Source of the DNA: a virus
IMG/VR virus record: IMGVR_UViG_3300036790_000321
Coordinates: 1-34,531 of that record
Direction: 5' to 3' (one strand)
DNA: 34,531 nt
Part shown: in pieces, positions 13,705 to 34,531 of the stretch
Layout of the letters: every line of letters starts with the position of its first letter
Numbering within the stretch: the first letter of the stretch is position 1
The notes under the pieces: generated by a model
Seen by the model: the letters and a program-made list of their open reading frames with translations, nothing else
Databases searched by the model: none
What the model was told of the DNA's origin: nothing
Translations under genes and position numbers: made by a program

Positions 13705-13943
13705 CGCCAGTGCAGCTCCTCGGCCAGGGCGGCCAGCTCCTGGGCGATGAGCGACCGGACAGCCTGCTGCACTCCCCCGGCCATGGCCTGCACGTCGTCC
13801 GGGGATTCCTGCTCCGGCTCCTGCAGGACGCTCTCGGCCAGCGACCTGGCGCGGGCGAGGAGGGCACGCTCGACGATCGCGGTGTCCACGTTCAGGTGCG
13901 TGCGGCGCTCGGTGCGGCGCGGCGGGTTAGCGGCGAATGCCAT
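13701..13943 (-). CDS. Small helical protein, unknown function
   Basis: This is 80 residues from ATG at 13943, overlapping the preceding gene by 17 bp. An Arg/Pro-rich start (NPPRRTERR) is followed by two amphipathic helices (IVERALLARARSLAESVLQE; GGVQQAVRSLIAQELAALAE). No family is recognised. Coupling by overlap places it in the accessory/terminase operon. Confidence 0.5.
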   Translation of the reverse strand: MAFAANPPRRTERRTHLNVDTAIVERALLARARSLAESVLQEPEQESPDDVQAMAGGVQQAVRSLIAQELAALAEELHWR

Positions 13944-14295
13944 CGGTGCTCCTGACTTCGAGGGTGCCGTTCGCGGTGAGGACGGCGCGGCCCGGCTCGC
14001 CTGCGGTGAGGGCGTCGCGCAGCCGGATGAGCTGGGCCAGCTCGTCGGACTCCAGGGCCTCCAGCTTGGCGAGCACCTCATCGGTCTTGCGGGCGCCGGT
14101 CATGCCGACGTAGGCGAGGACCGGCTGGGTCACTCCTGAGTACACGGTGAGGATGACCAGCCACCAGAACATGTGCGGGTCAGCCGCCGGGAAGATCAGC
14201 TCCAGGACCACGACGGCCATGCAGAAGGCGAAGGTCTGCAGGACGCCGCCGGCGGAGGCGAACCACACGCCGAAGCGGCTGATGACGCCGGTCAT
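13927..14295 (-). CDS. Membrane protein with two transmembrane helices
   Basis: This is 122 residues from ATG at 14295, overlapping the upstream stop as ATGA. Residues about 14-35 (AGGVLQTFAFCMAVVVLELIF) and 42-64 (FWWLVILTVYSGVTQPVLAYV) are hydrophobic. The C-terminal half is soluble and helical (TDEVLAKLEALESDELAQLI). The pattern loosely recalls small low-affinity iron permease-like proteins, but that similarity is weak. With the next gene it may form a membrane pair; a role in exclusion or lysis is possible and unproven. Confidence 0.62.
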   Translation of the reverse strand: MTGVISRFGVWFASAGGVLQTFAFCMAVVVLELIFPAADPHMFWWLVILTVYSGVTQPVLAYVGMTGARKTDEVLAKLEALESDELAQLIRLRDALTAGEPGRAVLTANGTLEVRSTDGIRR

Positions 14296-14591
14296 GCCGC
14301 CGCCCTCCGCTGGTCGATGCGGGAGCCGATCGTCACGCCCGTCCAGGTGCCCGCGTAGTCGGCGACGAGGCGGGCGGCGATCGTCACGAGGGTGAGGGGG
14401 ATGTTGCCGCCGACGAAGAGGGCGTCGCCGACCGCCCACAGGGTGGCGATCGAGCAGGCGTCATTCAGCACGTCCATCGCGGCCGAGCGGTGCGGCCGGT
14501 AGGCGGACTCCGCCTGCACCTGGATCGTGGCCACGATGTCCTGGCAGAACATCGCGGCGAACGCCACGGCGGGCAGCCACCAGCCGGTCAT
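14292..14591 (-). CDS. Small polytopic membrane protein
   Basis: This is 99 residues from ATG at 14591, which overlaps the upstream stop as ATGA. It has about three hydrophobic segments: WWLPAVAFAAMFCQDIVATI, VLNDACSIATLWAVGDALFV and IPLTLVTIAARLVADYAGTW. The ending GTWTGVTIGSRID with a glycine-rich C-terminal helix resembles short actinophage membrane proteins I have seen near packaging genes. Function is unknown. Confidence 0.6.
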   Translation of the reverse strand: MTGWWLPAVAFAAMFCQDIVATIQVQAESAYRPHRSAAMDVLNDACSIATLWAVGDALFVGGNIPLTLVTIAARLVADYAGTWTGVTIGSRIDQRRAAA

Positions 14592-14836
14592 CCGGTCTCC
14601 GCGTCCCGCCCGGCGTCCAGCGCCGCCCGCACGAAGCAGTCCTTGGCTTCCAGCAGCTTCCGGAGGCCGGCGGTCAGCTCGGGGCCGTCCGGCAGCCGGG
14701 TGAGGATGTGCTCGGCGAGGTCGGCGCAGGCCAGCGAGACGTGGCGCATCTCCCCCTGCGGCAGGTGGCCGTAATCGAAGTAGCGGGCCACGTGGACGGT
14801 GGCGGGATGGCGGTCGTGCAGCTGCTCCGGGGTCAC
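14588..14836 (-). CDS. Possible Acb2/Tad1-type hairpin protein (anti-CBASS/anti-Thoeris nucleotide sponge)
   Basis: This is 82 residues if started at GTG 14836, or 88 from ATG 14854. I prefer GTG because a promoter with ATCAT ends six bases upstream, the same layout as promoter L1. The core reads YFDYGHLPQGEMRHVSLACA, then ADLAEHILTRLPDGPELTAG, then LRKLLEAKDCFVRAAL. That is one short loop plus two long helices joined by a P-x-x-x-E turn. The pattern F-x-Y...P, then a basic residue and a helix, then PxxxE, then L-x-x-A, resembles my memory of the Acb2/Tad1 hairpin family, which forms hexamers that sequester cyclic nucleotides made by CBASS or Thoeris defence. This is recognition by pattern only. 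It heads the accessory operon and overlaps the next gene by 4 bp. Confidence 0.45.
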   Translation of the reverse strand: MTPEQLHDRHPATVHVARYFDYGHLPQGEMRHVSLACADLAEHILTRLPDGPELTAGLRKLLEAKDCFVRAALDAGRDAETG

Positions 14837-14875
14837 AGGTACATGATGCCTCATGTATCCGGATGCGGCTATACC
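14837..14875 (-). promoter_or_regulatory. Late-type leaderless promoter L2
   Basis: Read leftward, GGTATAG (14875-14869), nine bases, GATAC (14859-14855), seven bases and ATCAT (14847-14843) are followed by G-TACCT and the GTG at 14836. Spacing equals that of promoter L1. It would drive the accessory and terminase operon. Confidence 0.6.
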
Positions 14876-14904
14876 AGGGTGGACCGGGGTGGACCAGTGA
14901 GGCA

Positions 14905-14936
14905 GGACGGGCGCCCGGGCGGCAGAGCGCCCGTCC
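14905..14936 (-). terminator. GC-rich hairpin terminator
   Basis: GGACGGGCGC (14905-14914) pairs perfectly with GCGCCCGTCC (14927-14936) around a 12-base loop. It lies just after the stop of the 14968-15312 gene in the leftward direction and before promoter L2, so it would insulate the two transcripts. There is no T-run, which is common in high-GC actinobacterial terminators. Confidence 0.6.
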
Positions 14937-14967: not shown

Positions 14968-15312
14968 CTAGCCCTCGTCCCAGCCGGACAGCTTCGGGTT
15001 CCTGCCCAGGGCGTCCATGAGGGCGTCCAGGTCACACTCCGGCTCGTTCTCCTCTTCCCACAGCGGTACCGACGCCCTCAGCGCGGGGCCGGTGGCGAGC
15101 CGGTACGGGCGCGGCGGCTCGGTGTGCGTGGCCGCGGCGATGACCAGGGCGCGGATGCACTTGCCGCAGATGAGGAACTCGTCCGGCCGCGGGCAGCCGG
15201 TCTCCGCGGCCAGCCTGGCGTCAGCCTCGGTGTGCCAGGGGGCTTCGAGCCGCGGCGGGTCGACGGCGAGGCAGGAGTCGCAGCGCGGGGTGCCGTCATC
15301 GGTCCATGACAT
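14968..15312 (-). CDS. Cys-rich (zinc-knuckle) protein, unknown function
   Basis: This is 114 residues from ATG at 15312. A CDSC pair near the N-terminus (residues 11-14) and a CGKC pair (about 49-52) could form one zinc site. Between them is an acidic/Ala region, and the C-terminus is acidic (EEENEPECDLDALMDALG). It is a single-gene transcript ending at the hairpin 14905-14936, and divergent from the plus-strand gene at 15414. No homologue is recognised; an early host-takeover or regulatory role would fit its place but is a guess. Confidence 0.62.
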   Translation of the reverse strand: MSWTDDGTPRCDSCLAVDPPRLEAPWHTEADARLAAETGCPRPDEFLICGKCIRALVIAAATHTEPPRPYRLATGPALRASVPLWEEENEPECDLDALMDALGRNPKLSGWDEG

Positions 15313-15376
15313 GTCATGCTCTTTTCTTTCGCTGAAGATCTCTCACTGTTTCCGGGGGTAAGCAGACTGCCCTGGT

Positions 15377-15394
15377 CTACCCTGGTGTTCTAGG
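15377..15394. promoter_or_regulatory. Shared divergent-promoter element, copy 1
   Basis: CTACCCTGGTGTTCTAGG lies in the 101-bp gap between the divergent genes 15312 and 15414. It matches 15 of 18 positions with the element next to the GntR gene (22804-22821). The gap also carries TCTCTCAC (15339-15346) and CCGGGG (15352-15357), which the other divergent gap also has. Confidence 0.5.
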
Positions 15395-15413: not shown

Positions 15414-15989
15414 ATGGGAGAAGTCAGAGAGCCGGACCTGAGGACGATGTACGACCGGATCCACCGCGAGGTCAGCGATGCGCTCAGCCTCACGGACTGG
15501 GCCGAGGACGAGATAGAGCAGGCCCAGGCGCGGCACCCGGAGCAGGCCGACCTGCTCTACCACTCGTTCTCGCTGCTGTACCCGACGGTCGGGTCGCGGG
15601 CGTGGTCGACGGAGTTCGTGGTGCGCGGGCACGCCAGGGAGCTGCTGGAGCGGCTGGCGAGGGGAGAGGACACCCGGCCGGCCACGGCGGCGGAGACCTG
15701 CCTGATCATGTCCGAGGTCAGCAAGCGGTTCCCGCTGGGCGGGGCCGCAGCCGGGCTGTACCTGCGCATGTGGGCGCAGGCGTTCCCGGACTGCCCCGTG
15801 GGAGACGGCAGCAGGGGCGGGGCCTACGAGCGGATCTACGGCCAGCAGATCGATGAGTACGAGCGGCAGGTCCGCCACAAGGCCCGCCAGCGCAAGAGGG
15901 CGATGGGCGCCGTGGAGTGCGACGGGGAGCACTTCGGCGAGCCGGCGGTGTGCCGGTACGCCGCCCGGGACGCCCGGAGGACCGCGTGA
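15414..15989 (+). CDS. Helical cytosolic protein, unknown function
   Basis: This is 191 residues from ATG at 15414 with AAAGGGGA 7 bases upstream. The sequence is almost entirely helical and charged: LRTMYDRIHREVSDALSL, DWAEDEIEQAQARHPEQADL, and a C-terminal YERQVRHKARQRKRAMG. No catalytic motif is seen. It is co-transcribed with a lipoprotein gene through a GTGA overlap, an unusual pairing of a cytosolic helical protein with a surface lipoprotein. The shared promoter element suggests control with the GntR region. Confidence 0.65.
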   Translation: MGEVREPDLRTMYDRIHREVSDALSLTDWAEDEIEQAQARHPEQADLLYHSFSLLYPTVGSRAWSTEFVVRGHARELLERLARGEDTRPATAAETCLIMSEVSKRFPLGGAAAGLYLRMWAQAFPDCPVGDGSRGGAYERIYGQQIDEYERQVRHKARQRKRAMGAVECDGEHFGEPAVCRYAARDARRTA

Positions 15990-33633: not shown

Positions 33634-34065
33634 TCAGGCGGAGTTGGTCCAGGTGGGGACGACGCCGTCGCAGCCGACGCCGGGCACCTGGAAGGTCAGC
33701 TCGCCGGTCGCGGCGCGGGTGAGCTGGTAGTCGGTGAACAGCAGGTTGGCGTTGAACACCGGGTAGGCGCTGGCCGTGGGCTGCAGCGAGTTGGCGCGCT
33801 GGGCGCTGGTGGACGGGGCCGTGGAGAAGACCTCGTGGCTCATGTCCGCGGCGTCGTTGAACACGCCGTTGTAGGTCATCGAGATGGTGGACAGGAGCAG
33901 GATCAGCTCGTTGGCCGACTTGTCCACGCCGGTCACGTCCTGGGTGGCGTGCGGGGTGGACAGCGTCCAGTTGGTGATGTCGTTGGTGATCGTCTGGACG
34001 GTGCCGGCGGAGTCAGCGACGGTAATTACCTCGCCAAGGCCACTTTGCTTAGAAATTGGAACCAC
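33634..34065 (-). CDS. Major tail (tail tube) protein B
   Basis: This is 143 residues from GTG at 34065; the ribosome site (AAAGGGA) is unusually close, so the start is less certain. KQSGLGEVITVADSAGTVQT at the N-terminus and TQDVTGVDKSANELILLLST are close to tail tube A. The rest has the beta-sandwich pattern MSHEVFSTAPSTSAQRANSL and a C-terminal GELTFQVPGVGCDGVVPTWT, shorter than A by about 105 residues. Its place directly before the chaperone genes is the standard one for the major tail protein, so this copy may be the main tube subunit and A a variant or decoration. The divergent HNH 1 gene begins 44 bp upstream. Confidence 0.8.
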   Translation of the reverse strand: MVPISKQSGLGEVITVADSAGTVQTITNDITNWTLSTPHATQDVTGVDKSANELILLLSTISMTYNGVFNDAADMSHEVFSTAPSTSAQRANSLQPTASAYPVFNANLLFTDYQLTRAATGELTFQVPGVGCDGVVPTWTNSA

Positions 34066-34111: not shown

Positions 34112-34531
34112 ACTGCGAAAGCTACAGATGGGCTTACGAAGGCTCAGCGCTATTACGCTGCGCACCGTGACGAGATCCTTCAGCGCAAGAAGGCCAAGAC
34201 CGCTGGCCGGGTTCCTGAGCCGGGCAATCCGTGCGAATGCGGCTGCGGGGAGATGGCGGCGGCGGGGCGCCGTTTCGTCAACCATCACAACTCCCGCGTG
34301 GCGCATCCGATGAAGGGCAGGCACCACACGGACGAGACCAAGACGAAGCTCGCTTCCTACAAGGGAGAGCGCGCTAGCTCCTACAAGCACGGCTGGGCGA
34401 ACACGCCGACTTACCGGACGTGGACGTCGATGCTCAGCCGCTGCTACGACCCCCGGAACGCCTCGTATTCCGCATACGGAGCCAAGGGCGTCACGGTGTG
34501 CGACCGCTGGCGTGACTCGTTCGAGAACTTC
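34109..34531 (+). CDS. HNH homing endonuclease 1, N-terminal part (continues at 1)
   Basis: This is the first 141 codons of the HNH 1 gene; the window end repeats bases 1-127, so the gene runs on to 298. Residues about 40-60 hold a Cys cluster (PCECGCGEMAAAG) followed by FVNHHN. Next is HPMKGRHHTDETKTKLASYK, a NUMOD3-like DNA-binding module, then the start of the HNH core (YRTWTSMLSRCYDPRN). The Cys cluster is not present in HNH 2, so the two paralogues have different front ends. The whole protein is about 197 residues. Confidence 0.9.
   Translation, partial: MTAKATDGLTKAQRYYAAHRDEILQRKKAKTAGRVPEPGNPCECGCGEMAAAGRRFVNHHNSRVAHPMKGRHHTDETKTKLASYKGERASSYKHGWANTPTYRTWTSMLSRCYDPRNASYSAYGAKGVTVCDRWRDSFENF
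34405..34531. repeat. Right copy of 127-bp terminal overlap
   Basis: Identical to 1-127; marks the point where the assembly closes on itself. Confidence 0.93.

Follow-up and report, generated by a model that had tools for sequence, protein, structure and literature searches.

Acb2 and Tad1 are characterised signal sponges that bind cyclic oligonucleotides or gcADPR and inhibit CBASS or Thoeris, and Sequestin and Lockin are other sponge families. For a small gene in a 34.5-kb viral record, it had been proposed from the letters of the DNA that the product is a new actinophage member of the Acb2/Tad1 group, i.e., an anti-CBASS/anti-Thoeris nucleotide sponge. This raises the question whether the gene belongs to that superfamily and, if so, whether its product would act in the way the known sponges do. 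In the following, the window means the whole stretch of DNA that we have analysed (34,531 nucleotides). It carries a 127-bp direct repeat at 1–127 and 34405–34531, which is consistent with a circular or terminally redundant genome, and the ORFs at both window ends share sequence across this repeat.

The hairpin gene and its family

The gene, which we call the hairpin gene, lies at 14588–14836 on the minus strand and runs from a GTG start at 14836 to a stop at 14588. It encodes 82 amino acids, MTPEQLHDRHPATVHVARYFDYGHLPQGEMRHVSLACADLAEHILTRLPDGPELTAGLRKLLEAKDCFVRAALDAGRDAETG (GTG as M), and the product described in the original prediction is thus borne out. An in-frame ATG at 14854 is a possible alternative start that would give 88 amino acids, while the GTG start is favoured since many relatives begin only a few residues ahead of RHP. 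Residue numbers refer to the 88-aa form throughout. In this numbering the layout that had been proposed is also found, i.e., F26-x-Y28...P32, a helix, a P55-x-x-x-E59 turn, and a further helix with LLEA.

Relatives of the hairpin protein have been found in 310 viral-contig stretches, 351 phage records, and 199 bacterial-genome stretches. As they are so widespread in viral, bacterial and phage sequences, the hairpin gene is a real gene, far beyond chance. The protein matches PHROG 5120 (E 5e-29) and PHROG 1761 (E 2e-22), which are the hairpin family itself and are both annotated as of function unknown. Hundreds of phage genomes carry a gene of this family as a 'hypothetical protein'. The hosts include many actinobacteria, as well as proteobacteria (Acinetobacter, Vibrio, Erwinia, Ruegeria), and the family is also present in MAGs or genomes labelled Chloroflexota, Planctomicrobium, Verrucomicrobiales, Gemmatimonadales, and the cyanobacterium Stenomitos. 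Its members share a core of ~60 amino acids, YFxYxHLPxxLQxVSKPxxDLAxxMxxxLPDGPExTAGLRKLLEAKDCFVRAAL, in which E59, R65, L67, L68, K71 and D72 are invariant in 67 diverse members.

Direct searches of Pfam, NCBIfam and PDB sequences with the hairpin protein were empty or gave chance matches. The best PDB sequence match, Gp22 (E 0.018–0.033), was dismissed as a weak and partial match to a large protein. The labels 'Occludin homology' and 'phosphomannomutase', which appear on relatives or on true Acb2/Tad1 members, were rejected as annotation noise. We have also rejected the label 'anti-TRAP', which is found on the protein of Ochrobactrum phage vB_OspP_OH (L286:209-577) and reflects the fused cysteine-rich, zinc-ribbon-like part that precedes the hairpin there. 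Other fusions were observed as well. In Rhodococcoides fascians (L166:4992-6866), an ORF of 625 amino acids has the hairpin at its N-terminus, with prohead protease and capsid protein sequence after it. In Erwinia phage Y3 (L086:1758-2180), it stands C-terminal to a P-loop-like fragment (GPVGCGKS), for which the matches in Pfam were all weak. In two Acb2/Tad1-type relatives (L193:1001-1690 and L205:1001-1726), the hairpin ORF runs on into a hydrophobic stretch that resembles a membrane protein.

Genomic context and upstream region

Downstream of the hairpin gene, and overlapping it by ATGA, lies a minus-strand gene of 99 amino acids (14292–14591), followed by one of 122 amino acids (13927–14295, minus strand). 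Both have a hydrophobic segment by hydropathy, and neither has a Pfam or PHROG match. The terminase, portal, head maturation protease and major head genes of the window come after the hairpin gene on the same strand. On the other side, a same-strand ORF of 114 amino acids (14971–15312, minus strand), again with no Pfam or PHROG match, ends 134 nt upstream of the hairpin gene.

It had been claimed that the hairpin gene stands first in an operon that has a promoter of its own. This part of the original prediction was not confirmed. The 'first gene' status is uncertain because of the upstream ORF, and no sigma-70-like promoter was found upstream of the hairpin gene, a negative that carries little weight in an actinophage-like genome. 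Two other elements were observed in this region. Two overlapping copies of CCCTGGTCTACCCTGGT, with 2 and 3 mismatches, lie at 14873–14899 on the minus strand, 36–62 nt upstream of the GTG, and an exact copy of this 17-bp element lies at 15370–15386 on the plus strand, upstream of a divergent ORF that starts at 15414. Three near copies of the element were reached in none of 100 shuffles. In addition, a perfect 10-bp inverted repeat with a 12-nt loop (14905–14936) stands between the upstream ORF and the hairpin gene, and the terminator scan reported no terminator there. The repeated, operator-like element near oppositely transcribed genes suggests shared regulation and is not proof of a promoter; together with the inverted repeat, it speaks in favour of a separate regulatory region for the hairpin gene.

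Across the family, the upstream gene is on the same strand at 103 of 109 non-redundant loci and the downstream gene at 104 of 106, and overlaps are common. The genes upstream have matches to families of endolysins, terminase large subunits, portal proteins and head morphogenesis proteins, the most frequent single one being an endolysin family (phrog_1493, 10/70). On the downstream side, 28 genes are small and have a hydrophobic segment. Actually, the position is not fixed: some members stand in tail modules, others have endolysin on one side and small membrane genes on the other, and a large Acinetobacter phage has its copy in the interval from topoisomerase to RNA ligase. True PF24729-type genes occupy similar slots, with Jace gp19 between endolysin and holin and Chidiebere gp24 after the portal gene.

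Elsewhere in the window, three plus-strand ORFs (2110–2604, 26–298 and 34253–34531) lie antisense to the surrounding minus-strand genes and have a motif in common, G..GxTVCxxW..FENFLADMGExP...GNYEPGNCRW as seen in the ORFs at 2110–2604 and 26–298, which is reminiscent of proteins associated with phage homing endonucleases; two of the three ORFs were scanned and gave no Pfam match. Two minus-strand ORFs (781–1545 and 33634–34065) begin with similar sequence (KQSGLG...DVTGxxxxANEL) and are perhaps paralogous tail proteins.

Remote homology to the Acb2/Tad1 hairpin

Membership in the curated family PF24729 (Acb2_Tad1_hairpin) means a match above the Pfam cut-off of 27 bits. None of 66 proteins, including that of the window, matches this profile, and no match was found in the window DNA, while the positive controls T4 Vs.4 and LoneWolf gp49 match at 2e-20 and 6e-19. 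Sequence-profile searches of the PDB with the family found no Acb2/Tad1 chain either. Since features that define Acb2 and Tad1 were looked for and not found, the hairpin family should not be filed under either name.

A more distant relationship is visible when families rather than single proteins are compared. For this comparison, we used 16 PF24729-type phage proteins of the FxYHPP kind, three of which were checked individually in Pfam (3e-18 or better). With hhalign, 76 family members match these 16 proteins with a probability of 94% (E 1.2e-7, score 41.5), whereas the controls reach at most 19.5 in 300 column shuffles, 10.0 for the reversed alignment, and 11.0 among seven unrelated small phage families. 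Circular shifts (up to 47.2) and shuffles of 7-column blocks (up to 42.0) are poor null models here because they keep the motif together. The probability is 93.4% when the most divergent family members are left out, and falls to 68% with the alignment of 66 close relatives (A1) alone. The signal also depends on the chosen representatives, since an Acb2-dominated set, used at first, gave a non-significant 1.4% and the FxYHPP-type set 94%; a mixed set still reached 89.5%.

Searches of single sequences point the same way in both directions. An HMM of the 16 Acb2/Tad1-type proteins places 66 of the 76 family members above the best true decoy (E 0.49), with the best members at 3e-7 and the window protein at E 0.0059; the nominal decoy dec_L125_10 is a genuine family member and was not counted as a true decoy. 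In the reverse search, the family profile places 13 of 17 FxYHPP-type proteins above the best true decoy. In a scan of the whole library, the next PHROG after the family's own two was phrog_1454, which 41 of the 66 members match (best E 0.0034). Pfam-confirmed Acb2/Tad1-type proteins match phrog_1454 at 5e-27 to 8e-32 and, reciprocally, two of them match phrog_1761 at 0.003–0.02. Searched against six whole phage records, the family profile gave two matches, both on the Acb2/Tad1-type gene (Ibantik and Jordennis), which was the sole match in each record. This test is not symmetrical, since the Acb2/Tad1-type profile (A6) found nothing in 16 family-bearing records.

Overall, these profile comparisons strongly support a remote homology between the hairpin family and the Acb2/Tad1 hairpin. 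The profile match that the original prediction had looked to is therefore absent in its direct form, against PF24729, but present as profile-profile similarity to the 16 hairpin proteins of phages.

Predicted fold

AlphaFold2, run on the hairpin protein with 67 sequences, predicts helices at 17–26, 35–53 and 58–87 (mean pLDDT 91, pTM 0.80). Because of this model, the helical hairpin fold can be regarded as well supported, and the two long helices are expected to pack antiparallel. No strands are predicted, and an N-terminal beta-sheet as in Tad1 is absent. The model of a true PF24729-type protein has the same order of helices (2–6, 14–37 and 42–65). Acb2 has been described as one short N-terminal helix and two long antiparallel helices (PMC10419184), and the predicted layout of the hairpin protein fits this description.

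In Foldseek searches against the PDB, the window model retrieved no Acb2/Tad1 chain and nothing significant. This negative is meaningful, since the model of a true member retrieves Vs.4 first and Tad1 next. Against BFVD, an 'Acb2/Tad1 hairpin domain-containing protein' appears at rank 8 with a probability of 0.97, below the family's own relatives and unnamed entries, and five further 'Acb2/Tad1 hairpin' proteins are among the top 50. Taken together, the claimed relationship to Acb2/Tad1 is retained as remote homology, through profiles in both directions, reciprocal PHROG matches and Foldseek against BFVD, but not as a match to PF24729 or to a solved structure, nor in the conserved Acb2/Tad1 positions, which are replaced.

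Exchanged residues

In a joint alignment, the two groups share a framework of F26, Y28, A47, P55, E59, G/A63, K66, L67, E69 and A70. Against this common background, the Acb2/Tad1 signature columns (Y11, K26, R67, T74, M81 and W) are changed in the hairpin family, and only the Y column is kept. K26 of Acb2-like proteins (96%) corresponds to S40 (92% Ser), R67 (92%) to P58, T74 (96%) to R65 (99%), M81 (100%) to D72 (97%), and the tryptophan (92%) to C73 (78%). Two of the signature residues, Y11 and K26, contact cGAMP in Acb2. The hairpin family has its own near-invariant replacement set of S40, R65, K71, D72 and R76, with H30 and E59. As one conserved set is swapped for another, the exchange points to a changed ligand or a changed function more than to decay. 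It had been predicted that a related protein should be a two-helix hairpin with conserved pocket residues; the hairpin is what the AlphaFold2 model shows (pLDDT 91), but the pocket residues of Acb2/Tad1 are replaced.

Possible function and alternative explanations

We tentatively favour the explanation that the product of the hairpin gene is a divergent member of the Acb2/Tad1 superfamily, i.e., a branch with a short N-terminal helix, an FxY loop, two long antiparallel helices and a rebuilt pocket, which would probably serve as a signal sponge. The protein would assemble into an oligomer like Acb2, which is a homohexamer, and Tad1, bind a nucleotide-type immune signal that the host makes, and withhold it from the effector late in infection. 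Since a near-invariant set stands in place of the conserved Acb2/Tad1 positions, the ligand is probably handled differently than in Acb2, and may be a different ligand. In a wider form of this idea, which we consider unlikely, the family would be a large unannotated clade of the superfamily in phages of actinobacteria, proteobacteria and several further phyla, whose rebuilt, charged pocket sequesters an immune nucleotide signal outside the targets of the known sponges.

The same homology and the same exchanges can be read in other ways. The hairpin may have been exapted to serve the phage late in its cycle, for example as a chaperone or an accessory in head assembly, and bind a phage protein instead of a nucleotide. 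Given the structural and lysis neighbours and the fusion to a prohead protease and capsid protein in Rhodococcoides, a role in morphogenesis would fit equally; the frequent terminase large subunit, portal and head morphogenesis genes upstream and the replaced signature positions also agree with it. However, the slot is not fixed, extending to lysis genes, tail modules and the topoisomerase/RNA ligase interval in the large Acinetobacter phage, and two true Acb2/Tad1-type genes (Jace gp19 and Chidiebere gp24) hold the same slots, so that we regard exaptation as doubtful. The endolysin families upstream and the small hydrophobic genes downstream could instead suggest a lysis-timing or holin-associated regulator, yet many members adjoin terminase, portal or head genes, and in the window the terminase region follows downstream of the gene, which leaves this role highly unlikely.

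The original prediction itself, that the protein is an Acb2/Tad1 sponge of the classical kind and takes up the known CBASS or gcADPR signals as Acb2 and Tad1 do, is in agreement with the remote homology and with the kept FxY loop and turn glutamate. It is quite improbable all the same, as the equivalents of K26, R67, T74, M81 and W are S, P, R, D and C, and neither PF24729 nor the solved structures in Foldseek give a match. At the other extreme, the family could be an unrelated helical hairpin with a mere resemblance to Acb2/Tad1, for helical hairpins are common in many unrelated proteins and Foldseek against the PDB found nothing significant. The profile matches in both directions, with their shuffle, reversal and decoy controls, make such a coincidence very improbable.

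The link to the sponge superfamily turns a family of hypothetical proteins into a testable candidate counter-defence family. The swapped signature and the strongly conserved new residues predict a changed ligand or partner, and they name the residues to mutate.

Comparison with known systems

Tad1 (PDB 7uav, 8kbe) shares with the hairpin protein the two-helix hairpin, which forms its C-terminal part. Tad1 carries an N-terminal beta-sheet (PMC12043709), whereas the hairpin protein is without it and matches Tad1 neither in sequence nor in Foldseek. The likeness to Acb2 (T4 Vs.4, PDB 7uq2; Pseudomonas phage Acb2, PDB 8h2j) lies in the overall helical layout and in Y28 as the counterpart of Y11. 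In contrast, the hairpin family has S40, P58, R65 and D72 for K26, R67, T74 and M81, lacks the insert between the helices, and gives no Foldseek match.

The closest resemblance is to the PF24729 proteins (Jordennis gp50, Xandras gp101 and Jace gp19), which have the same short N-terminal helix, F-x-Y loop and two antiparallel helices, as well as the P-x-x-x-E turn and K-[LI]-x-E-A in the second helix, and are likewise small phage genes, some of them in the same slots of late operons. The hairpin family differs from them in being missed by the Pfam model, in a loop that is ~4 residues shorter, and in the columns R (helix 1), T, M/F, W, N and A, which have become S, R, D, C, V and R. Xandras gp101, which matches PF24729 at 5e-16, has been reported as an actinophage member of the Acb2/Tad1 superfamily (PMC11953737). 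The claim of a new actinophage member thus holds for a divergent branch but not for a first member, since Xandras gp101 and others already match PF24729, and what is new is the separate, unannotated branch together with its exchanged residues.
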